Below are positions 4,451-33,967 of a stretch of 40,330 bases of DNA, in pieces. The position numbers and the translations under genes are program-made. The notes below the pieces were generated by a model. It was not told where the DNA came from. It was given only the letters and a program-made list of their open reading frames with translations, and did no database searches. Where the stretch lies: contig JAAYNF010000076.1 in assembly GCA_012520975.1 (NCBI GenBank), positions 1-40,330 on the forward strand. Direction: 5' to 3'. Numbering within the stretch: the first letter of the stretch is position 1; the number at the start of each line of letters is the position of its first letter. The stretch is from Clostridiaceae bacterium (GTDB lineage: Bacteria; Bacillota; Clostridia; Saccharofermentanales; UBA5734).

Positions 4451-4510
4451 ACAGGACAAATCCATCAGGCAACCGTGTTGCCGGTCGACTGGCATCCCGG
4501 TCTTAATCTG

Positions 4511-4519
4511 TGCTATCAT
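4511..4519 (+). promoter_or_regulatory. Extended -10 promoter for the alpha/beta-hydrolase gene
   Basis: TGC-TATCAT forms an extended -10 element about 59 bases before the ATG at 4578. No good -35 element lies at the expected distance, as is usual for extended -10 promoters. Confidence 0.4.
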
Positions 4520-4577
4520 ACGCTGGTGGTTGTTTTTAAAAAGCGGATTTCCGGATCAAGACCGAGGGAGGCTGTTC

Positions 4578-5843: not shown

Positions 5844-5868
5844 ACCCCATGGCAAATTTGCACAAATC

Positions 5869-5891
5869 GGCATCCCGAAATGCCTTTTTTT
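5869..5891 (+). terminator. Intrinsic terminator after the alpha/beta-hydrolase gene
   Basis: A short GGCAT/ATGCC stem with a 6-nt loop runs directly into seven T residues, 25 bases past the stop codon. The stem is only five base pairs, but the T-tract is good. Confidence 0.55.
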
Positions 5892-5934
5892 CGTTACAGC
5901 TTCCAATTATCCACCGGAACAGGCCCTCGTTGGA

Positions 5935-5961
5935 TTGACAAATAACCTTGATGATGATACT
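5935..5961 (+). promoter_or_regulatory. Probable promoter of serC-serA
   Basis: A perfect TTGACA at 5935-5940 is followed after 15 bases by GATACT. The spacing is short, so the exact -10 is uncertain. The element lies about 45 bases before the serC start. Confidence 0.4.
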
Positions 5962-6005
5962 CATATGGTTATGTGTTTGACCTGAATTGATACAGGAGAA
6001 AAGTG

Positions 6006-8263: not shown

Positions 8264-8274
8264 GTTCCGAACGG

Positions 8275-8304
8275 TTGGCGCCCGGTCTGCTTAGGGAATA
8301 TAAT
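8275..8304 (+). promoter_or_regulatory. Promoter of the GntR/FadR regulator gene
   Basis: TTGGCG and a perfect TATAAT are separated by 18 bases in the 69-bp gap after serA, about 29 bases before the ATG at 8333. This suggests the regulator is transcribed independently of serCA. Confidence 0.5.
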
Positions 8305-8332
8305 TACGGTATCAATCAAATGGGAGCAAAGC

Positions 8333-9097: not shown

Positions 9098-9132
9098 ACC
9101 GGACTTTACACCGGCGACATTTGATTTTTCCA

Positions 9133-9161
9133 TTGACCAAGTCATGCGGAGCGGTTATAAT
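9133..9161 (+). promoter_or_regulatory. Strong sigma-70 promoter of the iorAB-buk-ptb operon
   Basis: TTGACC (9133-9138), a 17-base spacer and a perfect TATAAT (9156-9161) are about 88 bases before the iorA start. Transcription should begin near 9168, at the left edge of the operator. Confidence 0.8.
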
Positions 9162-9168
9162 TTGATCT

Positions 9169-9185
9169 AACTGGTCTGACCAGTT
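9169..9185 (+). promoter_or_regulatory. FadR/GntR-type operator overlapping the iorA transcription start
   Basis: AACTGGTCTGACCAGTT is a perfect 8-bp inverted repeat around one central base and contains TGGT-CTG-ACCA, the TGGTnnnACCA core known for FadR-subfamily regulators such as PdhR and LldR. Placement over the predicted start point fits repression by the product of the gene at 8333. Confidence 0.75.
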
Positions 9186-9248
9186 GACAGGCTATAGATA
9201 TTAAATGAACAAATAAAATGATTGATACAGGAAAGGCGGGTTCAAAGA

Positions 9249-11027: not shown

Positions 11028-11029
11028 TT

Positions 11030-11623
11030 ATGCGTAAAAATATCCTTCTAATCGGTGTCGGCGGCCAGGGAACCATCCTGACCTCCAAAATCCTTACGGC
11101 CGGATTGGTCGAACTTGGCTTTGATGTCAAAATGAGCGAGATCCATGGCATGTCGCAGCGTGGCGGCAGCGTCACCACCCAGATTCGTTACGGGGAGAAG
11201 ATCTATTCCCCCAACATCGGCGAGGGTGAAGCCGATATCATCGTGGCTTTTGAACGATCCGAAGCTCTGCGTGGTCTGCCTTTCCTCAAACAAGGCGGTA
11301 CCATTATCGTCAACGAGCGCGAGATTTACCCCTTGCCGGTCATGACCGGCGCCATCGCGTACCCGGATAATATTATTGAAAATCTGCAAAAAACCGTCGG
11401 CAATGTTTTGTTTCTTGAAGCCGATCGTATTGCCACCGAATTGGGCAACATCCGGGCGCAAAACATCGTTTTGCTCGGTGCCCTCGTGGCATTTCTGTCC
11501 CTTGACGGTATTGACTGGAGTGAGCTGGTCGGCGAGATGGTTCCGCCCCGGGCAAAAGAATTGAACCAGAAAGCCTTTGCCGCCGGCTTCGATTTCTACC
11601 GGGCCCACACAGCCAAAGCCTGA
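11030..11623 (+). CDS. iorB: Indolepyruvate:ferredoxin oxidoreductase, beta subunit
   Basis: This is the 197-residue gamma-type oxidoreductase domain partner of IorA. Typical motifs are NILLIGVGGQGTILTSKIL at the N terminus and SEIHGMSQRGGSVTTQIRYG (about 37-56). It completes the CoA-dependent 2-oxo-acid:ferredoxin oxidoreductase. It starts two bases after iorA and overlaps nothing downstream; an intrinsic hairpin lies in the 67-base gap to buk. The gene order iorA-iorB and the lengths match the known enzyme. Confidence 0.95.
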   Translation: MRKNILLIGVGGQGTILTSKILTAGLVELGFDVKMSEIHGMSQRGGSVTTQIRYGEKIYSPNIGEGEADIIVAFERSEALRGLPFLKQGGTIIVNEREIYPLPVMTGAIAYPDNIIENLQKTVGNVLFLEADRIATELGNIRAQNIVLLGALVAFLSLDGIDWSELVGEMVPPRAKELNQKAFAAGFDFYRAHTAKA

Positions 11624-11631
11624 GTTATTAC

Positions 11632-11668
11632 CAAAAGCCGGCGGGACAACAGAGCCTGCCGGCTTTTT
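11632..11668 (+). terminator. Intrinsic terminator or attenuator between iorB and buk
   Basis: The arms AAAAGCCGG(G)CGGG and CCTGCCGGCTTTTT form about 13 bp with one bulged G and one G-U pair, ending in five T residues. It lies between iorB and the co-oriented buk, so partial readthrough would set a higher level of iorAB than of the kinase and transferases. Confidence 0.7.
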
Positions 11669-11690
11669 CCAATTCAAGGAGGAAGCGCCG

Positions 11691-12773
11691 ATGAGCTACC
11701 ACATCCTGGCCATCAACCCGGGATCAACAACAACAAAAATTGCTTATTATCAGGACAGCCGGATGCAATGGGTTAAGAATATCGAGCATGATCAGTCCGA
11801 TCTGGCACCGTTCAAAACCATTTATGACCAGTATCATATGCGCCGGCAGCTGGTTCTGGATACTATGGCCGAACAGGGCACATCGACCGCGGTTCTCAGC
11901 GCGGTTGTCGCCCGCGGCGGTTTGCTTCCTCCTGTTGAGGCAGGGGCCTACCATGTTAATCAGGCCATGATGGATACTTTGCGTTATCGGCCGGCCAACG
12001 AGCACGCTTCCAATCTGGGCGCCGTTCTGGCTTGGTCGATCGCTGAGCCGCTGGGCATCCCGTCATTTATTTATGACCCGGTCACGGTGGACGAGCTGGA
12101 AGATATTGCGCAGATTACCGGCCTTAAGGAAATGCGCCGTGTCGGTATGGGTCATAATCTCAATATGCGTGCCGCCGCCATCAAGTTCGCCGATTCCCAA
12201 AATCGGCCATATGAAGAGCTGAATATTCTGGTGGCTCATCTGGGTGGCGGAATCACACTCAGCCTACACAGCGGCGGACGGATCATCGACATGATTTCCG
12301 ATGATGAGGGTCCCTTCTCGCCGGAGCGCGCCGGTGGCCTGCCCGGCTTTCAGGTGATCAAGATGGCGACGTCCGGCGCTTATAACTACAAAGAAATGAT
12401 GGAAAAAGTTCAGCGACAGGGCGGATTGAAGGCATATTTCGGCACATCTGATACACGTCAGGTTGAGGCCAGGATCTCCCAAGGCGATGATTACGCGCGA
12501 TTGATTTTGGAAGCCATGGCGCACAATGTGGCCAAAAACATCGGCAAACTTGCCGTGGTTGTCCGCGGAAAGGTCGACGGAATTGTCTTGACCGGAGGAA
12601 TCGCCCATTCTCGGTTGATCACCGACTGGATCACGGAGCGGGTTTCTTTTATCGCCCCGGTGACCATTCTGGCCGGTGAAAACGAAATGGAATCATTGGC
12701 CTTGGGTGTCCTGCGTGTTCTGCGCGGAGAGGAAAAAGCACGAACTTTCACCGAAGGACGAGAAGGAGAATAA
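11691..12773 (+). CDS. buk: Butyrate kinase (acyl-phosphate:ADP phosphotransferase)
   Basis: The enzyme converts acyl phosphates to carboxylic acids and makes ATP. The 360 residues are the normal size for Buk and smaller than acetate kinase. ASKHA-fold hallmarks are the phosphate loop ILAINPGSTTTKIAYY, the central VAHLGGGITLSLHSGGRIIDM, the adenosine motif VLTGGIAHSRLI and 'ILAGENEMESLALG'. The start at 11691 follows a full AAGGAGG. In this operon its substrate is probably the acyl phosphate made by the two phosphotransacylases from IorAB-derived CoA thioesters, such as phenylacetyl, indoleacetyl or isobutyryl; Buk enzymes are known to accept branched chains, aryl use is inference. Confidence 0.93.
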   Translation: MSYHILAINPGSTTTKIAYYQDSRMQWVKNIEHDQSDLAPFKTIYDQYHMRRQLVLDTMAEQGTSTAVLSAVVARGGLLPPVEAGAYHVNQAMMDTLRYRPANEHASNLGAVLAWSIAEPLGIPSFIYDPVTVDELEDIAQITGLKEMRRVGMGHNLNMRAAAIKFADSQNRPYEELNILVAHLGGGITLSLHSGGRIIDMISDDEGPFSPERAGGLPGFQVIKMATSGAYNYKEMMEKVQRQGGLKAYFGTSDTRQVEARISQGDDYARLILEAMAHNVAKNIGKLAVVVRGKVDGIVLTGGIAHSRLITDWITERVSFIAPVTILAGENEMESLALGVLRVLRGEEKARTFTEGREGE

Positions 12774-12775
12774 TA

Positions 12776-13780
12776 ATGATGAAAGCTAAAATTGTCAGCA
12801 CGGTTCCCAGGTCAAGATTTGAATTGTTCAAAGTCGAGATTCCCGATCAATGGGAGGTTGACTTTGTCGATTATCCTTTGCCGGAGGAGGCTTTGATCGA
12901 AGCTTTGCGCGACGCGGATTTTTTGCTGGTCGGTTCGGTTCATCATGTCAGCAGCGCCGTTATTCATGCCGCCCCCTCGTTAAAAATGATCCACACAGAG
13001 GGCGTCGGCTTTGACAAGGTCGATGTGGAGGCCGCCCGCGCGGTGGGGCTGCCGGTTTGCAACAATCGGGCGGTCAACAATGTTTCGGTTGCCGAACACA
13101 CAATCGGTCTGATTCTGGCGGCTTTGAAAAGAATGGTTTATTCTGATCGCGAGATCAAGCGCGGCGATTTTACCGCTGTCCAGACACAGCTGCGCACCGA
13201 AGGCATCCATGAACTCAGGCACCAACATGTGGGTTTGGTCGGTTGCGGCGCGATTGGGCAGGAGGTGGCTCGCATGCTGGGGGTATTTGGCTGCAAGGTC
13301 AGTTATTTCGATACCTATCGACCCTCCCCTGAACGCGAGCGCGCGCTGAACATTTCCTATTTGGAATTGGATGACCTGCTCGCTCAATGCGATATTGTCA
13401 GCCTGCATGTTCCGGTTTTGCCGGATACCGTCAACATCATCAATGCGCGTGCCCTTGGCCTGATGAAAGATCATGCCATTTTGGTCAATACCTCGCGAGG
13501 TGAACTTATTGATCAGCCGGCCGCCGCGTCGGCCTTGGAAAGCGGTCGGCTGGGCGCTCTGGCCATTGACACCCTCGCCCCGGAACCGCCGGCCAAAGAC
13601 CATCCGTTTTTGACGCTCACCCCTGATGCAGCCGACCGGTTGATCATTACGCCCCACGTTGCCGGCACTACGGCCGAAGCTTTTACCCGTATGCTGCAAT
13701 GGGTGATTGCGGATTTCCAAGAGGTTCTGGCCGGTCGATTGCCCGACCGTGTTTGTAACGGTGTAACCGAACTGCGTTAA
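12776..13780 (+). CDS. D-2-hydroxyacid dehydrogenase (NAD-dependent)
   Basis: A 334-residue member of the D-isomer-specific 2-hydroxyacid dehydrogenase family. The Rossmann motif is VGLVGCGAIGQEVA (about 145-158), the catalytic Arg is in NTSRGELID, the acid Glu is in DTLAPEPP and the catalytic His is in ITPHVAGTT. There is no ACT domain, so it is not a second SerA. It begins two bases after buk (ATGATG; the first is taken) and is followed after 21 bases by ptb. In this context it could reduce an arylpyruvate or branched 2-oxo acid to the 2-hydroxy acid, disposing of reducing equivalents while IorAB oxidises another molecule; the substrate is inferred from neighbours. Confidence 0.85.
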   Translation: MMKAKIVSTVPRSRFELFKVEIPDQWEVDFVDYPLPEEALIEALRDADFLLVGSVHHVSSAVIHAAPSLKMIHTEGVGFDKVDVEAARAVGLPVCNNRAVNNVSVAEHTIGLILAALKRMVYSDREIKRGDFTAVQTQLRTEGIHELRHQHVGLVGCGAIGQEVARMLGVFGCKVSYFDTYRPSPERERALNISYLELDDLLAQCDIVSLHVPVLPDTVNIINARALGLMKDHAILVNTSRGELIDQPAAASALESGRLGALAIDTLAPEPPAKDHPFLTLTPDAADRLIITPHVAGTTAEAFTRMLQWVIADFQEVLAGRLPDRVCNGVTELR

Positions 13781-13801
13781 ATGCCAAGCGAGGAGGATAC
13801 C

Positions 13802-14710
13802 ATGATCCGTTGTTTTGCCGACCTGTATGCAGCTATCCATCAACACCCTCGTGTCACCATCGGCGTCGCCGCCGCCCAAGACAAGGAGGCGCTGCTCTGC
13901 GTGAAAGCTGCGTACGATAAGGGCATTGCCGAGGCGATTTTGGTTGGCGATGAAGATCTGATCCGACCACTGATTGAAGAAGTCGGCCTGCCCGAAACCA
14001 TCCGTGTGGTCAATGAACCGGATGTCAAGCAGGCCGCATGCACAGCCGTCAGGCTGATTCGCGCCGGCGAGGCCCAGATCCTGCTCAAAGGCAGTCTCAA
14101 CACATCGGATTATCTGAAAGCCGTGCTCAATCCCGACATCGGCCTGCGCACGGGGCGTCTCTTGGGCAGTCTGGCGGCTTATCAGTATCCCGGTGGCAGC
14201 AAACTTCTTTTTGCCACCGATACCGGTGTCAACATTCTGCCAAATTTTGATGAAAAAAAACAGCTGCTGCAAAATGCCTTCGCCGCCATGAAAAAAATGG
14301 GCATTGATCGTCCGAAGGTGGCTTGTTTGGCCGCCAACGAAAATGTCAACCCTAAAATTCCCAGTACGGTCGACGCCCGTCGGCTTCAGGAGCATTTCAC
14401 AGCCGACCCTTCCTTTGCGGGAATCATCGAAGGTCCGGTGGCCATGGATGTGGCGCTCAGCGCCGAAGCCGCCCGCCACAAAGGTCTGGACAGCAACGTG
14501 GCCGGTGACGTTGATCTGCTTCTGTTTTCCAGTGTCGATGCCGGAAACATTTGGAGCAAATCGCTGATTCACTTCGCCGGCTTTAGTATGGCCAACGTTA
14601 TTTTGGGCGCGACCCACCCGGTTGTTCTGGTGTCCCGCGCCGACACCGCCGAGATCAAACTCAACTCCGTTGCTCTAGCCTGTCTTTTGGCGGCGCGGGC
14701 AGACCACTGA
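13802..14710 (+). CDS. ptb: Phosphate butyryltransferase-like phosphotransacylase, copy 1
   Basis: Phosphotransacylases exchange CoA for phosphate on acyl-CoA. The 302-residue protein has PTB/PTA C-terminal domain features: ILLKGSLNTSDYLKAVLN (about 95-112), LLFATDTGVNILPNFDEKKQLLQNA, NVNPKIPSTVDA, EGPVAMDVALS and AGDVDLLLFSSVDAGN. Start 13802 is preceded by GAGGAGG; an ATG 21 bases upstream lacks a ribosome-binding site. It pairs with Buk to recover ATP. Compared with copy 2 it has the same motif order but clearly different sequence, so the two have probably diverged in acyl specificity or form a hetero-oligomer. Confidence 0.88.
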   Translation: MIRCFADLYAAIHQHPRVTIGVAAAQDKEALLCVKAAYDKGIAEAILVGDEDLIRPLIEEVGLPETIRVVNEPDVKQAACTAVRLIRAGEAQILLKGSLNTSDYLKAVLNPDIGLRTGRLLGSLAAYQYPGGSKLLFATDTGVNILPNFDEKKQLLQNAFAAMKKMGIDRPKVACLAANENVNPKIPSTVDARRLQEHFTADPSFAGIIEGPVAMDVALSAEAARHKGLDSNVAGDVDLLLFSSVDAGNIWSKSLIHFAGFSMANVILGATHPVVLVSRADTAEIKLNSVALACLLAARADH

Positions 14711-14745
14711 CCGCCAAGAAAGAATATAAAAGGAGTATGTGGGCG

Positions 14746-15666
14746 ATGGCTTACACTAATTTTCAACAGATTATCGATGAAATTCAGAGGAGCTCTCTGA
14801 CCAAACGACTGGCGGTTGCCGCCGCCCACGACGAGCAAACTTTGGAGGCTGTCTTTCGCGCCAGGCGTGACCGAATCGTCGAGCCATTGCTTTTTGGTGA
14901 ACCGGAAAAAATCAAAGCCATCAGCCGCAAGCTTGGCGAATCGATCGCCGATGAGGCTATTTTTCCGGCGGTTGATGACGCCGAAGCCGCCCGTCTCGCG
15001 GTTGCCGCCATCCGTGACAATCGATCCGACATCCTGATGAAAGGCAAGCTGGATACCGCCGTGATCCTCAAAGCCGTCGTCAACAGGGAACATGGGTTGG
15101 GCAAAGACCGGATCATGTCGATGTTGGTCTTTCATGAAATGCCGTCTTACCCGAAACTCTTGGCGGTGACCGACGGGGGAATGTGTCTTTACCCCACTCT
15201 TGAGGAGAAAAAACAGATTTTGATCAATGCTGTTGAAATGATGACCTTGATGGGTTACAAAAATCCGAAGGTTGGCGTGTTGGCCGCCATTGAAAAGGTC
15301 AATCCGAAAATGCCGGAGACCGTTGATGCCGACCAGCTGAAACAGATGAATATTCGTGGTGAAATCACCGATTGTATCGTTGAGGGGCCGATTTCTTACG
15401 ATTTGGCCATGAGCCGCGAATCAGCCGCCATCAAAGGTTTTTCCAGTCCGGTGGTCGGCGATGTTGACCTGCTGGTCGTGCCCGAAATCACAACCGGCAA
15501 TGTGCTTGGAAAATGCCTGGTATATTCAGCCGGAGCCAAAATGGCCGGCATCGTCGTCGGCGCCCGGGTCCCGATCGTGTTGACCTCGCGCGGCGCGCGA
15601 TCCGAAGAAAAGTATAGATCCCTCGTCTTGGCAGCTCTGGCCGATCGTTGCTACGATGAAGCGTAA
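14746..15666 (+). CDS. Phosphate butyryltransferase-like phosphotransacylase, copy 2
   Basis: The 306-residue second phosphotransacylase lies 35 bases after copy 1. The motifs match the family: ILMKGKLDTAVILKAVVN, LLAVTDGGMCLYPTLEEKKQILINA, KVNPKMPETVDA, EGPISYDLAMS and GDVDLLVVPEITTGN. ATG at 14746 is preferred because AGGAG is ten bases away; the ATG at 14737 is almost on top of the ribosome-binding site. Copy 2 is closer in feel to classical clostridial Ptb (DLLVVPEITTGN, SRGARSEEK), but this is recalled, not computed. It ends 12 bases from the convergent aldo/keto reductase gene, so it closes the operon. Confidence 0.88.
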   Translation: MAYTNFQQIIDEIQRSSLTKRLAVAAAHDEQTLEAVFRARRDRIVEPLLFGEPEKIKAISRKLGESIADEAIFPAVDDAEAARLAVAAIRDNRSDILMKGKLDTAVILKAVVNREHGLGKDRIMSMLVFHEMPSYPKLLAVTDGGMCLYPTLEEKKQILINAVEMMTLMGYKNPKVGVLAAIEKVNPKMPETVDADQLKQMNIRGEITDCIVEGPISYDLAMSRESAAIKGFSSPVVGDVDLLVVPEITTGNVLGKCLVYSAGAKMAGIVVGARVPIVLTSRGARSEEKYRSLVLAALADRCYDEA

Positions 15667-23212: not shown

Positions 23213-24478
23213 CTAATAGGTGGCAGAATCCCGTTGGCATTCAGGCAGGGTAGAACCTGCATAGGGCATGACGATGACCTGCGCGTTTTCTCCCATTTTC
23301 CGTAGCGCGGCATCCAATGCATCCTGTACTGTGGCAAATGGAGTAAGAAAAATACGCCGCACCAAGCTTGGATCCAAATCCGAAACCAAATAGATATCGG
23401 CATCCTCAAGCACCAGAGCAATGGCTGCGGCCTTGTGTCCGCCCAATTCAAAACTTGTCTTTACCCGGTGAATCAGGTCCCTGGGGTGTTTGGCCTCAAG
23501 CATCCACGTTTCAAAGATCTTTCCGCCCAGCCCTTCCTTGCATGAGCCGACCAAAATGATGATGCCGCCCTTTTTTACCGCGTGCTTCGCATTGTCCAGC
23601 GCCTTCTGTGTCTGGTACAAATCGATGTCTTTGGGAGCTCCTCCCTGAGAAGCAATCACGATGTCCCCCCGATTTGCGATCGGTTTTCTATACATATCGT
23701 CCAGAAAACGACATCCGGCCCGATGGGCTTCTGTCACATCTCCGGCGGAAGCAAAGATGATTTCCTTGTGTTCATCCAGCACCACGTTTACGATGTAATC
23801 CACGCCACAAAGATTCGCTGCTTCTTCAATATCCATGCGCACGGGATTGTCTTCCAAGCGACCGGTGCAGGCATAAGGAAGAATCATCATGCTGTGGTTG
23901 GATTGGGTGGCATCCCGGCTGGAGACCCCCGGCATAATGGCCTTTGCTCCTCCCGAGTAGCCGGCGAAATAGTGGTATTCGATGTTGCCGAGACAGATGC
24001 GACGGTCTGCCCGGGCAACCAAGCGAAAGACGTCGACCGGCGTGCCGCTTTTTGTTGTTCCAAGACGGATGCAATCCGTCGGATCGCTGTCAACACAGGT
24101 GATCTCCGTCCAGGCTCGCTCTCCGGCCAGCCGCCGACGTTCTTGTTCTGTGTGCTTTCGATGATTGCCCAACGCAAACACCAGCGTGATGTCCTCCGGG
24201 CGGACGCCGGCCGCGTACAGCTCGTCCAGAAGCGCCGGCATGACCTTCGGGGTGGGCATGGGCCGGGTTAGGTCGCTGGTCACGACGACAATTTTTTCTC
24301 CGGGCTTGACCAGCTCTCGCAAAGGCGGCGCTCCGATCGGTTCGAGCAGGGCGCGGCGCACCTCCTCTTCCCCCGTAAGTTTTTTTTGAAACACATTAGG
24401 CACGAGGATATCCATTAGGTTTTTGTCATTAATGACAAAACGCTGCGCTTCGTCGCCGTAGCCAAGTTCCAACTCCAT
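23213..24478 (-). CDS. LarA-family nickel-pincer 2-hydroxyacid racemase/epimerase
   Basis: A 421-residue LarA homologue. LarA uses a nickel-pincer nucleotide tethered to a Lys to racemise lactate; homologues act on other 2-hydroxy acids. The expected residues are present: His106 in LGNHRKHT, His169 and Lys179 in GNIEYHYFAGYSGGAKAIMPG, and His195 in SNHSMM. No larB, larC or larE cofactor genes are in the window. Its start abuts the stop of the pgk-like gene, so the two are translationally coupled in an operon with an archaeal-type GAPDH and an iron alcohol dehydrogenase. That suggests the substrate is a hydroxyacid produced by dephosphorylation of an acyl phosphate, not necessarily lactate. 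Confidence 0.85.
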   Translation of the reverse strand: MELELGYGDEAQRFVINDKNLMDILVPNVFQKKLTGEEEVRRALLEPIGAPPLRELVKPGEKIVVVTSDLTRPMPTPKVMPALLDELYAAGVRPEDITLVFALGNHRKHTEQERRRLAGERAWTEITCVDSDPTDCIRLGTTKSGTPVDVFRLVARADRRICLGNIEYHYFAGYSGGAKAIMPGVSSRDATQSNHSMMILPYACTGRLEDNPVRMDIEEAANLCGVDYIVNVVLDEHKEIIFASAGDVTEAHRAGCRFLDDMYRKPIANRGDIVIASQGGAPKDIDLYQTQKALDNAKHAVKKGGIIILVGSCKEGLGGKIFETWMLEAKHPRDLIHRVKTSFELGGHKAAAIALVLEDADIYLVSDLDPSLVRRIFLTPFATVQDALDAALRKMGENAQVIVMPYAGSTLPECQRDSATY

Positions 24479-25732
24479 TTAATCCAACCCTCTTTCCGCC
24501 GCGGTGCGCAAAGCCTTTACCACAGGGAGTTCCTCTCCCGTCAAAAAACGAATAAGCGCGCCGCCGCCTGTGCAGATATAGGATATGCGGTCTGTTTGAT
24601 CAAATCGCTTCAGGGCGGTGATGCTGTCCCCTCCTCCCACAACCGTATAGGCCTTGCTGTTCCCAAGGGCCTCCATGACGGTGCGGGTTCCCAAGGACGT
24701 TTCCTCTTGCTCAAAAACGCCCATAGGGCCGTTAAGAAACACGGTTGCGACATCCCGGATGCGACCGGCGTACATTTCGGCGGTCTTTTGCCCTATGTCC
24801 AAAGCCTCTAGATCTTCCGGCACCTCCGAAAGTGCGTAATCAATGCGCAAACCGTTCCGGCTGCCGGCAAGATCCAACGGCAAAACAATTTTATCCGGAT
24901 AGTTTTTACAAAGCGTTTCCGCCGCTTCGAGAAATTTTTCATGTCCGGATTTGCGGATCAAGGCCAAGCTTCCGCTTCCGACAGGCTTCTGCGTGGCCGC
25001 CAGCATGACATTGGCCACAAGCCCGCCGGTCAGAATGGCATCGGCGGTACCGTTTTTCAGGACTGTTTCCATCATCATGAACGTGTCGGAGATTTTTGCC
25101 CCGCCCAGAATGAATAAGCAAGGGCGAGCAGGGGCCTCCATCAGCTTAGAAACTTCGCAGTATTCTCGCTCGAACAGGCGCCCCATGGCTGATGGAAGCA
25201 ATTGTTCAAAGCCGCAAAGGGATGGTTGGTTCCGGTGCGCGGCCGCAAAAGCATCGCAGACATAAAGGTCGGCGAGGGGAGCCAATGTTTGCACGAGAAG
25301 GGTTTTGGATTGTTCTTCGTGGCTCAAACCGAGATTGAGCTCAAACAAGGTCTGTTCCTCACCAAGGTAACGTACATTGTCCAGCAGAAGGATCTCGCCG
25401 TCCGACAGCCGGGAAATGGCTTCCCGGGCGGCAGGGCCGCAAACGTCGTCAATGAACTTCACCGGGCGCGCCAGAAAATCCGAGAGAACTGCCGCGTGGG
25501 GCCGGGTGCTGAAAAAATTATGATATTCGATGTCGCTGCCTTGATGGGCAAGCAGAACAACCCGGGCGCCCTTATCGGACAACTCACGCACCGTCGGCAC
25601 GCAACCCTTGATGCGGGTGGTGTCCCGAAGGGTTCCTTTTTCCCGGTTGATGGGTTGATTGATATCCACGCGGCAAAGCACGGTTTTTCCGCCAACGTCG
25701 AAGTCATCCAGGGTCATAATCCCAAAGCGCAT
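24479..25732 (-). CDS. Archaeal-type phosphoglycerate kinase
   Basis: A 417-residue PGK that makes ATP from an acyl phosphate, canonically 1,3-bisphosphoglycerate. It follows the archaeal rather than the bacterial pattern: TLDDFDVGGKTVLCRVDINQPI, VVLLAHQGS (where bacteria have SHLGRP), CDAFAAAHRNQPSLCGFE, ILTGGLVANVMLAA, NGPMGVFEQEETSLGT and CTGGGALIRFLTGEELPVVKAL. These segments match the Pyrococcus enzyme closely from memory. The start (MRFGIMTLDD) follows GAGAGGGATCC. It lies 34 bases after the archaeal-type GAPDH and directly joins larA-like. A housekeeping bacterial PGK is presumably elsewhere, making this a dedicated catabolic copy, likely gained by transfer. Confidence 0.88.
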   Translation of the reverse strand: MRFGIMTLDDFDVGGKTVLCRVDINQPINREKGTLRDTTRIKGCVPTVRELSDKGARVVLLAHQGSDIEYHNFFSTRPHAAVLSDFLARPVKFIDDVCGPAAREAISRLSDGEILLLDNVRYLGEEQTLFELNLGLSHEEQSKTLLVQTLAPLADLYVCDAFAAAHRNQPSLCGFEQLLPSAMGRLFEREYCEVSKLMEAPARPCLFILGGAKISDTFMMMETVLKNGTADAILTGGLVANVMLAATQKPVGSGSLALIRKSGHEKFLEAAETLCKNYPDKIVLPLDLAGSRNGLRIDYALSEVPEDLEALDIGQKTAEMYAGRIRDVATVFLNGPMGVFEQEETSLGTRTVMEALGNSKAYTVVGGGDSITALKRFDQTDRISYICTGGGALIRFLTGEELPVVKALRTAAERGLD

Positions 25733-25766
25733 GAATGGATCCCTCTCTTTATTTATAAACACAGTG

Positions 25767-26822
25767 TTATCTTTTGAACTTTCCAATGCCCAGATAACGG
25801 TTGGTCTCGGCGGTGCCTTCTTCCCGCGTGGCCTGCATGCCCATGGCGGCTCGTACGGCGTCCAGCGTCTCGGGGATTGTCACGGCTTCTTGGGGGATGT
25901 TGATGGCGAACATAATGTCGTTGCCGGACTCCACGACCGAATCCTCCCACAGGGCGATCTCATACATATCGCCACGGCGGTTGCCCAGATCCCGGGCATA
26001 TTTAAACAAGGAGGCATTGCCCAAAAAACCCTCGGTTGTGGTGACGGTTCGGATGCGCGGATGCTTTCTGAAAACCTCGATGGCTTGTTCCTTTGTAATC
26101 TTCCGACCGTTTTTGCCGCTTGCCAGCACAGTAATAATATGTCCGTGGGTAACAGGAGTATGCACGAGAATCCCTGTGGCATGAATATGGGGCATGATGG
26201 TCATAAGGTCTACCGCCTGATGGGAGGGCGCCGTATCAATCTGAAGGGCGTTGGTCAATCCGCGATGGTAATCGCCGGGATCCGCTACCCGACGAACGAT
26301 GGTGATGGCAACCTTGTCCAGTCCGAATGTCCGATCCAGGCAATCCACGGCGCGGATGAGGCCGGTGGTGTTGCAGGAGGTCAGCTTCAGATAGTCTGCA
26401 CCCAGCCCCTTTTCGTAGTTGGCGTAACCATGGAAGAACACATCGGCGATGGCGTTGCTTTCTCCCCCTTGGAAAACCGCTTTGATGCCGGCCTCTTCGT
26501 ATAACGTCTTGTTTTGGGCGCCGACACCGCCGGGAGAAGAGTCAAGCATGATATCCACTTTGCCCAACAGATCCCTGAAGGAACCGGCGATGGGAATGTC
26601 GTATTTTCGGAAGGCGTCCTTATCCGCGCCATCCACCAGGTAGAGATCATACTTGACGCCGTTTATGCCGATCATATCGTTTTCTCTCAATGCCCGAAGT
26701 CCTAGGCCGGGCATCAAATCCGCAATGCCTACCAGCTCCATATCACCCTGAAGGGCAACGCCATCCGCAATGCGCTGTCCGATTGTACCGTAGCCGGCGA
26801 CACCGACTTTAATCTTTGACAT
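25767..26822 (-). CDS. Archaeal-type (type II) glyceraldehyde-3-phosphate dehydrogenase
   Basis: A 351-residue phosphorylating aldehyde dehydrogenase of the archaeal GAPDH class. Nucleotide-binding motif GVAGYGTIGQRIADGV (7-22); SSPGGVGAQNK (95-105), FQGGESN (117-123) and the catalytic Cys150 in TSCNTTGL match archaeal enzymes; a His in THGHII (226 or 228) is the likely base. The region that in archaeal GAPDH reads KGPINA...PSHHGPD is changed here to RGLTNA...PSHQAVD, so the aldehyde substrate may differ from glyceraldehyde 3-phosphate. GGGAGG precedes the ATG. It is cotranscribed with the archaeal-type PGK, so an acyl phosphate is probably handed on for ATP synthesis. Confidence 0.88.
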   Translation of the reverse strand: MSKIKVGVAGYGTIGQRIADGVALQGDMELVGIADLMPGLGLRALRENDMIGINGVKYDLYLVDGADKDAFRKYDIPIAGSFRDLLGKVDIMLDSSPGGVGAQNKTLYEEAGIKAVFQGGESNAIADVFFHGYANYEKGLGADYLKLTSCNTTGLIRAVDCLDRTFGLDKVAITIVRRVADPGDYHRGLTNALQIDTAPSHQAVDLMTIMPHIHATGILVHTPVTHGHIITVLASGKNGRKITKEQAIEVFRKHPRIRTVTTTEGFLGNASLFKYARDLGNRRGDMYEIALWEDSVVESGNDIMFAINIPQEAVTIPETLDAVRAAMGMQATREEGTAETNRYLGIGKFKR

Positions 26823-26891
26823 GAAAATTCCTCCCTTTGCTTACTATCAATGAGTCGTTGTTAAAACATCAAGGGGCAGTATAGGTTTTGA

Positions 26892-28019
26892 TCAAAGAAG
26901 TTCTGTATAAATTTCCACGATCAGCTCTCGGGTCAAGGGAACGTAGGAGTTTACCACAAGACGCTGTTGATTCTCTAATACAGAGTCCGCAAAGATCTCG
27001 ATATCTTCCGGACGAAAGCCGTATTTGTGCAGGGGCTCCAGAGGCAATATTTTGTCTTCTAAAACCGCCATTTCCTCTAGGGCGTCCTCGGAGGGGCAAT
27101 CCAATACTCTTCCGATCAACTGCTTCAATTCGGCCAGTTTCCCGTCAGGGTCGATTTGGTCGTATTTTTCCAATACTTTGCCGAACAACAGGTAATTGGA
27201 CTCTCCATGGGGCACGTGATACGTACCGCCCAGAGGAAAACTCAGGGCATGTACCGAGGCGCAGCCGGCCTGCAAAAAGGCAATACCGGCATAACAGGAT
27301 GCCGTAAGAAATTCGTCCAAATATTCCAGACGCGCTTCGGAACCGTTTTCGGAGACGCGACGCAGACCTTCCAGAATCATTTCAATGGCTTTTACACCGA
27401 AAAGCTCGCTGGTCATGGTGGCGCGGGATGGAGACAGATAGGATTCCACCGCATGGACAAGGGCGTCAATGACAGAGGAAAAAAACGGCCGATATGGCAG
27501 CGTTCGAAGCATATCCGGAATCAGGCAAACGTCGTCCGGAATAAGGAGGTCGGAGACCAATCCCAGCTTGGTGGTTTCGCCGGCCTGACCGCGCACAATG
27601 GCCACCGAAATATTTGTAACTTCCGAGCCTGTTCCACAGGTTGTGGGGACAGCCACCAGTTTCTTGGCACGCTCGACCGGCGCTTCTTTGAAGAAGATCG
27701 CATGGACCGAACCGGTGCGCCGGATGGCCAGCAGTTTGCCGATATCCATGATCGCACCGCCGCCGACCGCGATGACACGGGAGTAGCTATCTTGGTCAAT
27801 GTCTGCAAAAAGATCGGTGATCATTTCCTCGGAGGGCTCACCGGCACCGTAACGCTCTTGAAAAACGAAACGGCATGGAAGCTGCAACGGCTCCATAAAG
27901 AACTGATAGATGGGCTCGTTGGTCAGCACCAAGTCATTCTCATCAAGGATAAATTCTTCGGCAAAAGAAGAAAAATCTAAAAATTTATTGAGCGTGGGTT
28001 TAAGTAAAATTTCGCGCAT
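26892..28019 (-). CDS. Iron-containing alcohol dehydrogenase, 4-hydroxybutyrate dehydrogenase-like
   Basis: A 375-residue group III (Fe-ADH) enzyme. It resembles the clostridial 4-hydroxybutyrate dehydrogenase: ENDLVLTNEPIYQFFMEPL and FQERYGAGEPSEEMI at the N terminus, NAD-binding IAVGGGAIMDIGKLLA (about 88-103), VPTTCGTGSEVTN, and Fe ligands expected in SSVIDALVHAVE (Asp, His), 'ASVHALSFPLGGTYHVPHGESN' (His, His). It would interconvert a primary alcohol and a (semi)aldehyde with NAD. Start 28019 follows AAAGGAGA; the longer reading lacks one. It is first in the operon with the GAPDH-, PGK- and LarA-like genes, 69 bases before the GAPDH start, and likely feeds or drains the aldehyde used there. 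Confidence 0.85.
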   Translation of the reverse strand: MREILLKPTLNKFLDFSSFAEEFILDENDLVLTNEPIYQFFMEPLQLPCRFVFQERYGAGEPSEEMITDLFADIDQDSYSRVIAVGGGAIMDIGKLLAIRRTGSVHAIFFKEAPVERAKKLVAVPTTCGTGSEVTNISVAIVRGQAGETTKLGLVSDLLIPDDVCLIPDMLRTLPYRPFFSSVIDALVHAVESYLSPSRATMTSELFGVKAIEMILEGLRRVSENGSEARLEYLDEFLTASCYAGIAFLQAGCASVHALSFPLGGTYHVPHGESNYLLFGKVLEKYDQIDPDGKLAELKQLIGRVLDCPSEDALEEMAVLEDKILPLEPLHKYGFRPEDIEIFADSVLENQQRLVVNSYVPLTRELIVEIYTELL

Positions 28020-28108: not shown

Positions 28109-28137
28109 AGTATAAATCTGCAATATTGAAAAGTCAA
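28109..28137 (-). promoter_or_regulatory. Sigma-70 promoter of the Fe-ADH/GAPDH/PGK/LarA operon
   Basis: On the minus strand TTGACT, a 17-base spacer and TATACT lie about 90 bases upstream of the Fe-ADH start. Confidence 0.7.
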
Positions 28138-28613: not shown

Positions 28614-29936
28614 ATGAAAAAAACACTATCCATTTTGCTCGCAGTCGTGTTGTGCTTCGGCTTGGCGGCGTGCGGGCCGCAGACGCCGACCGACAAGCCG
28701 GTTGTGACCACGGCACCCCCGGTGTCCACAACCGCTCCGCAACAAACAACCGAAAAACCTGACGATAAGCCCCCTGCCAGAGAACTGACGGTATGGCATA
28801 TCTATGGCGAAGGTGATGCCATGCACGATACCACGATGGCTGTCATCAAAGCAGCCGAGGAGGAATTCGGCATCAAGATTAATGCGGTATCCGAAGAAAC
28901 AGAGGCCTACAAGGTGAAATGCAACGCAGCTGCCTCCGGCGGAACGTTGCCTGATATCTTCCTAACCTGGGGTCGCAGTGTCATCGGTCAATTTATTGAT
29001 GCCGGTGTTTTGGTGAATCTGTCGGATTATATGTCGGATGATATAGCCGAAAACGTTACGGATGGCTCTTTTGCCGAGTTCAGCAAGGACGGCAACGTAT
29101 ACGGCTTTACCGATGCCAACTCCGTGGGCGCGCTGTTTTGCAACACGGCTCTGTTTAAAAAGTACAACATAGACGTCATTCCCACAACCTGGGAGGAGCT
29201 GGGGGGCGTGTGCCAGGCCTTCCTCGACAACGGCGTAACGCCTTTCTGCGTGGGTGCGACCGATGCATGGACGTTGGCCATGTATTATGACATTATCGCC
29301 GTGCGCTGCGTGGGCGCTGAAAAAGTTGCCAATACCTTCCTCACAAATGATTTCTCTGATCCCGGATATTTGGAGGCTGCTCAACTGCTGGCACAGGCGG
29401 TTGAGTTGGGCTGCTTCAGAGATGATGCCATCGCCCTCAACCGGACCGAGGCTGAGGCGGATTTCTACGGTGGCCTTATTCCCATGATGATGCAGGGCAG
29501 CTGGACGGCTGCTCGCGTGTATGCCAATGCGGAGAATCCTGATGACTTTACCGCGGTTCCCTTCCCGGTTATCCACGAGGATATTGCCGGCCATTATAGC
29601 CTGACCGGCGGCGGCCAGACCGCTTTCTGCGTTTCCGCCAAGACCGCTGATCCCGCATTTACCACCAAGGTAGCCGAGTTTATCGCTCAGCGTCTTGCGG
29701 ATGGCAAGTTCGCAATGGGTGGGGGTATCAGCCCCTATAAATCCACACCGAATGAAACCTCCAACGCTCTGTTTTATAAGACCTTCGAGATGTCTACCAA
29801 AGCCGAGTCCATGACCATCTGGTTTGATACCGGTTTGAATGCGGAAGTCAAAACAGTCTACTTGAATAAGTTGCAGGAACTCTTTGCCGGTGCCATTACA
29901 CCTGAACAATTTATTGAAGCAATCAACAGCTTCTGA
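28614..29936 (+). CDS. ABC-transporter sugar-binding lipoprotein
   Basis: A 440-residue extracellular solute-binding protein of the MalE/oligosaccharide class. The N terminus is a lipoprotein signal (MKKTLSILLAVVLCFGLAAC) with a lipobox cleaved before Cys20, followed by a disordered Thr/Pro-rich linker (about 21-55) that tethers it to the membrane. The mature domain starts ELTVWHIYGEGDA and has SGGTLPDIFLTWGRS and, later, 'PMMMQGSWTAA', usual for sugar binders. AGGAGGTACCC precedes the ATG. It is followed by two permease genes and a GH3 enzyme, so the ligand is probably a beta-linked oligosaccharide or glycoside. Confidence 0.92.
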   Translation: MKKTLSILLAVVLCFGLAACGPQTPTDKPVVTTAPPVSTTAPQQTTEKPDDKPPARELTVWHIYGEGDAMHDTTMAVIKAAEEEFGIKINAVSEETEAYKVKCNAAASGGTLPDIFLTWGRSVIGQFIDAGVLVNLSDYMSDDIAENVTDGSFAEFSKDGNVYGFTDANSVGALFCNTALFKKYNIDVIPTTWEELGGVCQAFLDNGVTPFCVGATDAWTLAMYYDIIAVRCVGAEKVANTFLTNDFSDPGYLEAAQLLAQAVELGCFRDDAIALNRTEAEADFYGGLIPMMMQGSWTAARVYANAENPDDFTAVPFPVIHEDIAGHYSLTGGGQTAFCVSAKTADPAFTTKVAEFIAQRLADGKFAMGGGISPYKSTPNETSNALFYKTFEMSTKAESMTIWFDTGLNAEVKTVYLNKLQELFAGAITPEQFIEAINSF

Positions 29937-29954
29937 TCTCTGACCGACATGTTG

Positions 29955-29982
29955 GAGGGGCGCGCTTTCCTTGCCGCCCCTC
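29955..29982 (+). repeat. GC-rich hairpin between the binding-protein and permease genes
   Basis: GAGGGGCG and CGCCCCTC form a perfect 8-bp stem with a 12-base loop and no T-run. Such hairpins after binding-protein genes often stabilise the upstream mRNA and lower downstream expression. Confidence 0.6.
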
Positions 29983-30046
29983 TCTCCATGCCGAAGGGGG
30001 CGCGTTCTCGCTCGCCTTTCCTTCAATCAAGATGGAGAAGTGATGC

Positions 30047-30922
30047 ATGAATAAATTACTGAGCAACAAAAAGGCAATCGTTCTGTTTCTTTTTCCGGCT
30101 TTTGCAATTTTCCTGACTTTTATCATTGTGCCCTCTTCGGTTTCTCTTTATTATAGTCTGCATGACTGGAACGGCGTGGGCGCGATGACCTTCGTAGGAA
30201 TCAAGAACTACGTCAGACTTTTTGTGAATAATACGGACGGATTTACATCCGCGGTCTGGCATGCCGGCCTGATTGCTCTTGCTTCCGTGTTTATCCAGCT
30301 TCCTCTCTCGTTCTGCTTTGCCAGTATTTTGGCACGACGCGTGCGCGGGGAACGTTTTTATCTGACAGTATTTTTTATTCCGGTAATTATTTCCTCCACG
30401 GTGGTGGCCCAACTGTGGCTTAAGATTTTCAATGGCAGCTACGGTTTGCTCAATTATCTGTTGACCGCCGTCGGGTTGGAAAAATGGACCCGGGCATGGC
30501 TGGCCAAGCCCCAAACGGCGTTGCCGGCGGTTATCATTCCCATCATATGGCAGTATGTCGGTTACCATATGCTGCTCATGTATACAGCCATCAAAGGCTT
30601 GTCCTCGGATATTTTTGAGGCGGCGCGCATCGACGGAGCCACTAATTTTCAGACCGCCATCAGAATCACCCTTCCAAACATTCGGCCGATTATCCGGGTT
30701 TGCGTGATCTTTGCGGTTATCGGTTCCCTCAAAAGCTACGATATTATTTTTATGATGACCAAAGGCGGACCCATCGGCGCCACCGAGGTGCCTACAACGC
30801 TGATGGTGGAAACCTTGTTCACCGCCCAACGATACGGTTATGGCAGCGCCATGGCGGTGATTATCATCCTGCTGTGCTTCCTGCTATCTTTGCTCATCAA
30901 GAAGTTCTTCAAGGTGGAGTGA
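30047..30922 (+). CDS. Sugar ABC-transporter permease, MalF/MsmF type
   Basis: A 291-residue inner-membrane permease with about six helices. The first helix is near residues 9-31 (AIVLFLFPAFAIFLTFIIV). The EAA loop that contacts the ATPase reads DIFEAARIDGATNFQTAIRITLPNIRP (about 188-214). It forms a heterodimer with the next gene product and receives ligand from the lipoprotein at 28614. ATG at 30047 follows GGAGAAG. No ATPase gene is in the operon, so a shared MsmK-like ATPase encoded elsewhere probably energises it. Confidence 0.93.
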   Translation: MNKLLSNKKAIVLFLFPAFAIFLTFIIVPSSVSLYYSLHDWNGVGAMTFVGIKNYVRLFVNNTDGFTSAVWHAGLIALASVFIQLPLSFCFASILARRVRGERFYLTVFFIPVIISSTVVAQLWLKIFNGSYGLLNYLLTAVGLEKWTRAWLAKPQTALPAVIIPIIWQYVGYHMLLMYTAIKGLSSDIFEAARIDGATNFQTAIRITLPNIRPIIRVCVIFAVIGSLKSYDIIFMMTKGGPIGATEVPTTLMVETLFTAQRYGYGSAMAVIIILLCFLLSLLIKKFFKVE

Positions 30923-30935
30923 CGGGAGTGTGGCT

Positions 30936-31790
30936 ATGAAAAATAAAAACAAACCGAAAAAAATGCGTATAACAGCCGGCATAACGGCGGTGCAGATCCC
31001 GTTGGCGATCTGGGCCCTGTTGCAGCTGTTCCCTATATACTGGCTGTTGGTTTTGTCTTTCAAGAGTAATCAGGAAATATTTAGCGGCAACTCCATTTCT
31101 CTCCCCACCGTGTGGCGTTTTGAAAACTATGATTTTGTCTTTCGCAACGGCAACATGGGAACCTACCTGTTTAATAGTTTCCTTGTAACACTGATAACAA
31201 TTTTGTTGGTTTCGACCTTTGCGATCATGGCATCCTTTGCCATTTCCCGGATGCGGTGGCGGCTGTCGTCAGCGGTTGAAAGCATGTTCATCCTAGGTAT
31301 TACGGTACCGTTGCATGCGGCGCTTTTGCCGACATTTCTCATGCTGGGCAAGATCGACCTGCTCAATACACGCTGGGCGCTGATTTTGCCTTACACAGCC
31401 TTTTCTCTGCCGGTGGCTATCCTTATCTGCAACGGCCTGATGCGCAGCATTCCCAGAGACATCGATGAGGCGGCCTTTTTGGACGGGTGCGGCATTTTCG
31501 GCGTGTTTTTCAGAGTGATTGTGCCGCTGATGAAACCCGCCATCTCCACGATTTCGATCTTTACCTTCCTGCACTCTTGGAATGAACTGTTGTTCGCGCA
31601 AATTTTAATTAATGACAAGGCTCTCAAAACATTAACAGCCGGCATCCAATCGCTGGTGGGCGAGCATTCTACCGCTTGGGGTCCTGTTTGCGCGGCATTG
31701 GCCGTTGCCTCCATCCCCACGATCATCGCCTATCTGTTCATGAGCAAGCAGGTTCAGCAGAGCATGATCGCAGGCTCAATCAAACAATAA
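30936..31790 (+). CDS. Sugar ABC-transporter permease, MalG/MsmG type
   Basis: A 284-residue inner-membrane permease with about six helices, the partner of the previous gene. The EAA motif is DIDEAAFLDGCGIFGVFFRVIVPLMKPA (about 186-213). The ATG at 30936 has GGGAG seven bases upstream; the GTG six bases earlier is too close to it. It lies 13 bases after the first permease stop. The following GH3 gene starts 14 bases after its stop, so import and hydrolysis are transcriptionally linked. Confidence 0.93.
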   Translation: MKNKNKPKKMRITAGITAVQIPLAIWALLQLFPIYWLLVLSFKSNQEIFSGNSISLPTVWRFENYDFVFRNGNMGTYLFNSFLVTLITILLVSTFAIMASFAISRMRWRLSSAVESMFILGITVPLHAALLPTFLMLGKIDLLNTRWALILPYTAFSLPVAILICNGLMRSIPRDIDEAAFLDGCGIFGVFFRVIVPLMKPAISTISIFTFLHSWNELLFAQILINDKALKTLTAGIQSLVGEHSTAWGPVCAALAVASIPTIIAYLFMSKQVQQSMIAGSIKQ

Positions 31791-31804
31791 AGCAGGTGAA
31801 AATA

Positions 31805-33967
31805 ATGGAGCCGATTTTAGATGTAGCGCATCTCAATACAATTTTTGCGATGAAAAAGGAAGAGCAACGCTCTTATTTGGATGCCGTTGCCCAGGAACTG
31901 CGGCAGCATCCGATTCGTCATCTGGATACGGAGTGGGGTTGTCTGACGGATTTCGATTTATCGGATGAATCTTCGCTGGATGCTGCGGTGGCACAGTTGC
32001 TGGACAGCATGGACCTGACTCAGAAAATCAATCAGATGAGCGCGGACATTCCACCGAAACTGTATAAGGTTTTGTTTCCCCGATATAACTGTAAACCCTA
32101 TTATGCCGGCGAAGATCTTGCGTTGAATATTCCGGCTATCAAGTTTTCCGATGGCCCGACCGGGATTGTGGCGGGCTACCATTCCACGGCGTTCCCCGTG
32201 CCCATGGCACGAGCCGCTTCCTTTGATCCCGAACTGGAGCGTCGAATCGGCGATGCCATCGGCAAGGAGGGCCGGGCATCCGGAGCGAACTTTTTCGGCG
32301 GGGTCTGCATTAATCTTTTGCGTCATCCCGCTTGGGGACGAGCGCAGGAAACCTACGGCGAAGACCCGTACCTTTTGGGAAAAATGGGCGAGGCTCTTGT
32401 CCAAGGCGTACAACGCCACATGATGGCCTGTGTTAAGCATTTTGCCGCCAACAGCATGGAAAATGCCCGGTTCCGGGTTAATGTGATTCTTTCGGAACGG
32501 GTGCTGAGAGAGGTCTATCTGCCTCATTTTCTGACCTGCGTCAAGGCGGGGGCCGCAGCGGTCATGAGCGCCTATAATCGGGTCAACGGCCAATGGTGCG
32601 GACACAGCGCCGCTCTCTTGCGAAAAATATTAAAAGAAGAATGGGGATTTCAGGGCCCTGTGATATCTGATTTTATCTGGGGCGTTCGAGATACGGTGGA
32701 GGCTGCTCTCGGAGGCTTGGATATCGAGATGCCGGTGACGCAACATTATGGTCGTCTGCTGGAGCAGGCGGTGACCGAGGGCCGTGTGGATGAAGAGGTG
32801 ATCGATGAAGCCGTAAGTCGGATTCTTCGCGTGAAACTTCGTTTTTCCCGTGTGGGAGAGGGATCCTATCCGGAGCATTTGATGGCCTGCCCCGAACACT
32901 GTGCGCTGGCCAAGGAGGCGGCGATAAAATCAACCGTTTTGCTCAAAAATGACGGTATGTTGCCCCTGAAAAAAGACATTAAAAAGATTACCATCGTGGG
33001 AAAGCTGGCCAAGCAGCCCAATATTGGTGATATGAAAGGCAGCAGCGCGGTCTTTCCTCCTTATGCGGTCACTCCTTGGGAGGGTTTGAGGGAGCGCCTG
33101 CCGGATGTGGAATTCCGCTATGCCGATGGAGAAATTCTTGATGAGATCAGTGAAAAATGCAAGGATGCCGATGCGGTTCTGATCTTTGTCGGCCTGACCT
33201 GCCGGGAAGAAGGCGAGTATATCTTAAAAGAGGGAGCGGTGGGCGGCGACCGGACGAGCTTGGCGCTCTCGGAACACGACCAAGATATTATTTATGCTGC
33301 AACACGCGCAAATTCCAACTGCTCGGTGTTTGTTCAGGGAGGAGGAGCCGTGCTAACCCATCCTTGGGAGCAAAGCGTAAAAGCTCTTATGTTGCTTTGG
33401 TATCCCGGAATGGAGGGCGGAAACGCGTTGGCCGCCTTGCTGACAGGCGATGCCTGCCCCGGTGGCAAGCTGCCCTTTACGATTCCTCGGACGCCGCAAC
33501 AACTGCCATATTTTGACAGAGATGCGACCGAAATCACATATGGCTTTTATCATGGGTATTTTTTGGCCGATCGGGACGGCGCCGCGGTGTCCTATCCCTT
33601 CGGTTTCGGTCTTTCTTACGCCAGAATTGACGTGAAAAATATTCGCGTGGAACGATCGGATTCGGGGGTGGATTTTCTGGCGGATGTATCCAATAAGAGC
33701 GAATTTCCGGCATCCGAGGTGATTCAGCTTTACACCGGATATGAAAATTCCGCCGTGGAGCGACACGTCAAGGATCTGCGTGACTTCCGGCGCGTATACT
33801 TGGAGCCGGGAGAGACCAAGACCGTCCGCCTGCATCTTGAGGCAGGAGATGTGGATTACTATGACCAAAGCAACGGCCGATGGGTGCACGAAAATATCGG
33901 TTATATTGCATATGTGGGAACCTCTTCCGCACAACAAGACCTGACCGCCGTATCGTTTCGCCTGTAA
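31805..33967 (+). CDS. Glycoside hydrolase family 3 enzyme, second and divergent type
   Basis: A 720-residue cytoplasmic GH3 beta-glycosidase. After an unusual N-terminal helical extension (about 1-60) comes the barrel with 'FSDGPTGI', HPAWGRAQETYGEDPYLLG, KHFAANSMENARFRVN and the nucleophile Asp in GPVISDFIWG (about 290). The second domain starts near STVLLKNDGMLPL, and a fibronectin-III-like domain follows SYPFGFGLSYARI. It is a different subtype from the GH3 at 2175: the nucleophile context is SDFIWG rather than SDANS. There is no signal peptide, consistent with hydrolysing sugar imported by the ABC system just upstream. GCAGGTGAAAATA precedes the ATG; the longer in-frame reading overlaps the permease gene. 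Confidence 0.92.
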   Translation: MEPILDVAHLNTIFAMKKEEQRSYLDAVAQELRQHPIRHLDTEWGCLTDFDLSDESSLDAAVAQLLDSMDLTQKINQMSADIPPKLYKVLFPRYNCKPYYAGEDLALNIPAIKFSDGPTGIVAGYHSTAFPVPMARAASFDPELERRIGDAIGKEGRASGANFFGGVCINLLRHPAWGRAQETYGEDPYLLGKMGEALVQGVQRHMMACVKHFAANSMENARFRVNVILSERVLREVYLPHFLTCVKAGAAAVMSAYNRVNGQWCGHSAALLRKILKEEWGFQGPVISDFIWGVRDTVEAALGGLDIEMPVTQHYGRLLEQAVTEGRVDEEVIDEAVSRILRVKLRFSRVGEGSYPEHLMACPEHCALAKEAAIKSTVLLKNDGMLPLKKDIKKITIVGKLAKQPNIGDMKGSSAVFPPYAVTPWEGLRERLPDVEFRYADGEILDEISEKCKDADAVLIFVGLTCREEGEYILKEGAVGGDRTSLALSEHDQDIIYAATRANSNCSVFVQGGGAVLTHPWEQSVKALMLLWYPGMEGGNALAALLTGDACPGGKLPFTIPRTPQQLPYFDRDATEITYGFYHGYFLADRDGAAVSYPFGFGLSYARIDVKNIRVERSDSGVDFLADVSNKSEFPASEVIQLYTGYENSAVERHVKDLRDFRRVYLEPGETKTVRLHLEAGDVDYYDQSNGRWVHENIGYIAYVGTSSAQQDLTAVSFRL

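Follow-up and report, generated by a model that had tools for sequence, protein, structure and literature searches.

The operon and its gene families

A stretch of 40,330 nt from Clostridiaceae bacterium (accession: GCA_012520975.1, contig JAAYNF010000076.1), hereafter the window, was analysed, and coordinates given without a contig or locus name are positions in it. Four intact, co-oriented open reading frames (ORFs) were found on the minus strand between 28019 and 23213. In 5′ to 3′ order these encoded an iron-type alcohol dehydrogenase (Fe-ADH) resembling 4-hydroxybutyrate dehydrogenase (26892–28019), a paralogue of type II (archaeal-type) glyceraldehyde-3-phosphate dehydrogenase (GAPDH-II; 25767–26822), a phosphoglycerate kinase (PGK) paralogue (24479–25732) and LarA, a malate racemase of the LarAH6 family (23213–24478). 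The intergenic gaps were 69 bp (Fe-ADH/GAPDH-II), 34 bp (GAPDH-II/PGK) and 0 bp (PGK/LarA). The original prediction, made from the sequence alone, had described these four co-oriented genes, and the frames, strand and family scores confirmed it. It had also placed them behind one good promoter. A promoter-like TTGACT-17-TATACT box is present 5′ of the Fe-ADH gene (28109–28137, minus strand), identified by its match to the consensus alone (10 of 12 positions); as six such sites occurred in the region and 4.9 were expected from shuffled sequences, the box is not significant evidence for a promoter.

GAPDH-II scored 276.8 bits against TIGR01546 (cut-off 232.9) and 384 against PRK04207 (cut-off 185), retained the catalytic SCNTTG motif with its invariant Cys150 and was approximately 41% identical to 2czc. 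PGK scored 376 bits against PF00162 (cut-off 27) and its best solved relative was the P. horikoshii PGK (2cun). Its ATG start codon at 25732 was read directly; an alternative frame with a TTG start at 25786 is unlikely as it would overlap the GAPDH-II gene. LarA was above the LarAH6 malate racemase cut-off (NF052593, 573.5 against 500 bits), had Mar2 (6d6z, 415 bits) as its best solved relative and carried GGHK, in agreement with the H/Q-K substrate signature of malate racemases at the W358/T359 positions (PMC11770544). Fe-ADH scored 130.9 bits against PF25137 and 74.3 against PF00465. Its best solved relative was Cvir-Hbd2 (30sm, 345 bits), which by its name alone is taken to be a 4-hydroxybutyrate dehydrogenase, and it was below the curated cut-off for the Cupriavidus-type 4-hydroxybutyrate dehydrogenase (NF058672, 101 against 500 bits).

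A search of the same genome revealed a type I GAPDH of the housekeeping kind (contig C93) and a PGK–triosephosphate isomerase fusion whose PGK has the usual SHLGRP motif (contig C72). Because this separate housekeeping set exists, the operon is not the glycolysis of the organism, as had been predicted. The genome assembly is 96% complete and in 176 contigs. That the window's contig is a contaminant was rejected, as its IorA was 92% identical to the counterpart in a same-genus genome and its tetranucleotide composition matched that of the other contigs (r = 0.95–0.96). The composition of the operon was also near that of the contig (r = 0.90).

Conservation of the module in relatives

Two sources of relatives were used. 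The neighbourhood set comprised 148 genomes, including that of the window, of which ten others encoded GAPDH-II above the cut-off. When 84,980 named species genomes were searched with the bacterial GAPDH-II subfamily, at least 572 relatives were recovered and the best 80 retained, so that this sample is similarity-ranked rather than random. The 80 were largely rumen, gut and termite Clostridia together with Spirochaetes, and two were Planctomycetes. The 80 scanned loci and the ten neighbourhood relatives gave 90 loci for examination.

GAPDH-II, PGK and LarA were encoded together in 64 of the 90 loci. Both subunits of a split transketolase were also present in 43 of those 64, and iolD, iolE or iolB in 33. 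All 81 loci that had both GAPDH-II and PGK encoded them on the same strand, at most 150 bp apart in 71 cases, and a malic enzyme was found in 31 of the 80 scanned loci. The H-K malate racemase signature was present in 63 of 64 LarA sequences. Five loci, mostly from Spirochaetes (L076, L082, L117, L126 and L132), had a more distant type of LarA near GAPDH-II (207–239 bits, GYHK instead of GGHK). LarA requires larB, larC and larE, which direct synthesis of its nickel-pincer nucleotide cofactor, for its function and not for membership of the family. The larC gene was found in all six tested relatives with LarA in the locus and was above the cut-off in none of the four without it, which supports the cofactor logic of the module.

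The predicted conservation of the four genes thus held for GAPDH-II, PGK and LarA and did not extend to Fe-ADH. Likewise, the conserved partners of the module proved to be transketolase and inositol genes, which lie outside the window, and the alcohol/aldehyde step assigned to Fe-ADH was not among them.

Probable link to inositol catabolism

An even sample of the class (391 genomes) contained 27 genomes with IolD, 15 with GAPDH-II and 13 with IolC. IolD was encoded by 11 of the 15 GAPDH-II genomes (Fisher P = 2e-11), and the 27 IolD genomes divided into 11 with GAPDH-II, 11 with IolC, none with both and five with neither (P = 3e-4), although both P values are inflated by shared ancestry. GAPDH-II and IolC were not found in the same genome anywhere in the 391. 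IolA, the methylmalonate-semialdehyde dehydrogenase, was above the cut-off in none of 11 GAPDH-II genomes. Taken together, the exclusion of IolC and the absence of IolA place the module where IolC and IolA usually stand. One relative (L026) encoded IolD, IolG and IolE above the curated cut-offs. In the five genomes with IolD and, at the thresholds used, neither IolC nor GAPDH-II (G183, G203, G210, G227 and G237), the inositol intermediate may take yet another route, or data may be missing.

Residue changes in GAPDH-II, PGK and transketolase

The 3-phosphate ligands of pig PGK are Arg65, Arg122 and Arg170, with His62 contacting the bridging oxygen (PMC7729029). Alignment of 80 operon-type PGKs showed that Arg38, His62, Arg122, Arg170 and Lys215 were kept in all of them, whereas the Arg65 position was Ser in 70, Asp in nine and a gap in one. 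The window PGK has the same pattern: Arg38, Lys215 and the Asp of GGGDS, on the catalytic and ADP side, are retained, as are His62, Arg122 and Arg170, and Arg65 is replaced by Ser, so that the full basic patch is not present.

The C-terminal halves of the transketolases (n = 51) were changed at positions that presumably contact the substrate phosphate. The position of human His416 was Asp in 50 and that of Arg318 was Lys in 45; Arg474 was retained in 50 of the 51 and the catalytic Glu366 without exception. Loss of the PGK Arg65 and these transketolase changes agree with a substrate in which a carboxylate may replace the phosphate. Operon-type GAPDH-II had 19 near-fixed differences from three archaeal sequences, including SHH to SHQ in 91 of 91 and changes in the RRxADP...NA stretch. 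These changes suggest that glyceraldehyde 3-phosphate is not its substrate.

The same residues bear on whether the genes encode a second, conditional glycolytic or gluconeogenic pair acting on the normal phosphorylated substrates. Both enzymes retain their catalytic motifs, and three of the four PGK phosphate-site residues checked are kept, which is what such a pair would show. However, Arg65 is lost in 79 of 80 PGKs, SHQ is universal in GAPDH-II, the linkage to malate racemase is constant and a housekeeping pair is encoded elsewhere in the genome. A second pair of this kind is therefore very improbable.

Proposed pathway

We propose that GAPDH-II, PGK and LarA together are a lower-glycolysis module repurposed to act on carboxylate mimics of glycolytic intermediates. 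In most bacteria with the module, IolG, IolE, IolD and IolB would convert inositol to 5-keto-2-deoxygluconate, the last intermediate shared with the known pathway. Read as a ketose, 5-keto-2-deoxy-D-gluconate is HOCH2-CO-CHOH-CHOH-CH2-COO-, which by chemical reasoning has the D-threo configuration of xylulose 5-phosphate with a carboxylate at the place of the phosphate. The dedicated two-subunit transketolase would transfer the C2 unit of this ketose to a sugar phosphate, releasing malate semialdehyde (3-hydroxy-4-oxobutanoate), the carboxylate mimic of D-glyceraldehyde 3-phosphate. GAPDH-II, as a phosphorylating malate-semialdehyde dehydrogenase, would convert this with Pi and NAD(P)+ to D-malyl phosphate, from which PGK, as a D-malyl-phosphate:ADP phosphotransferase, would form D-malate and ATP. 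LarA would then convert D-malate to L-malate and malic enzyme would convert malate to pyruvate, such that each neighbour in the conserved clusters would have a use in an inositol-to-pyruvate route.

The predicted order of aldehyde to acyl phosphate, hydroxy acid with ATP and then racemisation is supported. The original prediction had named an unusual (phospho)hydroxy-aldehyde as substrate; the unusual aldehyde stands, and it is probably the non-phosphorylated malate semialdehyde because of the malate racemase identity of LarA, the malic enzyme in relatives and the lost phosphate ligand of PGK. The core idea of that prediction therefore holds, and its interpretation overall is partly supported.

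Another carboxylate aldehyde could instead be handled by the module, such as the semialdehyde of tartrate or of 2-hydroxyglutarate, or malate 4-semialdehyde, for which the alcohol would be 2,4-dihydroxybutyrate. Characterised malate racemases act on tartrate too (PMC11770544) and modules with non-inositol neighbours exist; however, the inositol and transketolase context predicts exactly 3-hydroxy-4-oxobutanoate, malic enzyme lies beside LarA and LarA has the malate signature, which make a different aldehyde quite unlikely.

The best overall explanation, to which we give a probability of roughly two in three, is a repurposed malate-semialdehyde module that would have inositol input in most carriers and exchange through Fe-ADH in the window's genome. 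The module itself is held a little more confidently, and much more firmly than the Fe-ADH step.

Evidence against the proposed route

Several observations, among the relatives and in the window's own genome, weigh against this reading. Two relatives from a separate set (G010 and G021) encoded both IolC and GAPDH-II, the IolB-like protein of L026 was divergent and below the family cut-off, no transketolase was found in the stretch read for 23 of 58 longer scanned loci, and several GAPDH-II/PGK modules adjoined other, non-inositol genes. The transketolase residues taken above as phosphate contacts, His416 and Arg318, have been placed in a modelled active site only (PMC8016368). Neither IolB nor a convincing IolD or IolE was found in the window's genome, whose sole two-subunit transketolase is encoded in an apiosidase cluster on contig C38. 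The larB, larC and larE genes were not found in this genome (96% complete, 176 contigs), so its LarA may lack the cofactor. Finally, Fe-ADH is outside the conserved set, and none of the other loci examined had exactly these four genes.

Two candidates for the missing partners were rejected. An IolD-like match on contig C69 was read from the sequences as an acetolactate synthase in a leucine/isoleucine cluster, and the C38 transketolase keeps Arg318 and adjoins apiosidases, an FGGY kinase and an isomerase-like gene. The C38 cluster (1602–9177, L050) comprises the split transketolase, the FGGY kinase, a gene distantly resembling sulfoquinovose isomerase and two proteins of the apiosidase family, and is likely an apiose degradation cluster.

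Four other loci had neighbours of other kinds. In L138 (G305:C9), L137, L141 (G253:C28) and L142 (G321), the GAPDH-II/PGK module, accompanied in most cases by LarA and malic enzyme and in some by transketolase, adjoined genes for short-chain and zinc dehydrogenases together with TRAP transporters, for an ABC transporter, or for class II aldolases plus a pfkB-like kinase. The module apparently handles more than one substrate. In L024 (4059–11136, G075) and L114 (2665–11020) GAPDH-II and PGK, with LarA too in L114, directly followed genes for pyruvate/acetoin-dehydrogenase-like E1 alpha, E1 beta, E2 and E3, and neither locus had a split transketolase; L024 also had a glycyl radical enzyme upstream. 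Thiamine-dependent oxidative cleavage to glycolyl-CoA and malate semialdehyde would fit these two loci.

The operon in its own genome

The window PGK is of the Ser type common to other Clostridia, whereas the relatives of its order form a separate Asp-type clade, and for this reason the operon was probably acquired horizontally. It could then be a fragment with neither upstream supply nor LarA cofactor, marginal or decaying. The grouping of its PGK outside the clade of its own order, and the failure to find inositol genes, the dedicated transketolase or larBCE in the genome, are in line with a fragment. However, the four frames are intact and tightly spaced, the composition of the operon is near that of the contig, Fe-ADH looks like an added partner and gaps in the assembly are possible. 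On this evidence a decaying fragment is unlikely.

For the preferred malate-semialdehyde module, Fe-ADH would interconvert malate semialdehyde and 3,4-dihydroxybutyrate, feeding or draining the aldehyde in the window's genome. This assignment is tentative and somewhat doubtful; it is made because a 4-hydroxybutyrate-dehydrogenase-like enzyme suits succinate-semialdehyde-like substrates and malate semialdehyde is 3-hydroxysuccinate semialdehyde. The nearest other copy of Fe-ADH, in L128, is in an apparently separate operon next to acyl-CoA dehydrogenase/Etf-like genes and was not used as a sign of a conserved link.

Two further gene groups were found in the window. IorA/IorB, a butyrate kinase, a 2-hydroxyacid dehydrogenase and two phosphate-butyryltransferase-like genes lie in a row on the plus strand (9222–15666), probably a second acyl-phosphate, ATP-forming cluster on the contig, for 2-oxo acids. 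Divergent from the operon, also on the plus strand (28614–33967), are an ABC solute-binding protein, two permeases and a family 3 glycoside hydrolase, with no evident link to the operon.

Significance and comparison with known systems

The families are known and their arrangement is new, likely a new branch of inositol catabolism of which the window holds a derived version. No paper linking inositol, transketolase, GAPDH/PGK and malate racemase was found in a limited literature search. We lean towards a natural carboxylate copy of the metabolism from xylulose 5-phosphate to 3-phosphoglycerate, in which inositol-derived 5-keto-2-deoxygluconate would yield malate with ATP formed and no kinase investment. 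It would be spread among gut, rumen and termite Clostridia, Spirochaetes and Planctomycetes, and versions for other substrates would include the Fe-ADH-linked one of the window. Inositol, including that derived from phytate, is commonly available as a carbon source in diet and soil; its textbook catabolism spends ATP at IolC. If correct, the route would explain inositol use in genomes without IolC and IolA, provide a natural malate-semialdehyde dehydrogenase and malyl-phosphate kinase, like activities of which were obtained for a related synthetic pathway only by engineering, assign malate racemases a role and show GAPDH and PGK changing substrate together. The glycolytic labels that current family models give to the module genes are misleading.

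Compared with classical myo-inositol catabolism (Bacillus subtilis Iol), the clusters of the relatives encode the same upper-step families (IolG, IolE, IolD and IolB) but mostly lack IolC, and IolA where tested, and have transketolase, GAPDH-II, PGK, LarA and malic enzyme instead; the predicted outcome is C2 transfer and malate rather than dihydroxyacetone phosphate and malonate semialdehyde. The archaeal type II GAPDH and PGK belong to the same families as the operon's, from which the bacterial GAPDH subfamily (approximately 41% identity to 2czc for the window's copy) is set apart by its 19 near-fixed differences and the PGK by the lack of a basic residue at Arg65. Mar2 of Thermoanaerobacterium thermosaccharolyticum shares with the window LarA the LarAH6 family, above the cut-off, and the H-K signature, whereas the window LarA sits in an acyl-phosphate module and its cofactor genes were not found in the genome.

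Malate kinase and malate semialdehyde dehydrogenase were called previously unreported in 2017 and were engineered from aspartate-pathway enzymes (Walther et al., PMC5481828). That synthetic pathway to 2,4-dihydroxybutyrate phosphorylates the other carboxylate (malyl-4-phosphate), whereas the module proposed here would employ enzymes of the GAPDH and PGK families at the carboxylate adjacent to the hydroxyl and run in the direction that yields ATP. A similar logic is seen in the sulfo-TK pathway (SqwGH), an established route by which Clostridia and Spirochaetes degrade sulfoquinovose and in which a transketolase takes a sugar with its phosphate replaced by another anion and transfers the C2 unit to glyceraldehyde 3-phosphate (PMC12890257). 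The proposed module would differ from it in having a carboxylate rather than a sulfonate, and in that the released aldehyde would be oxidised by GAPDH and PGK paralogues with ATP formed.

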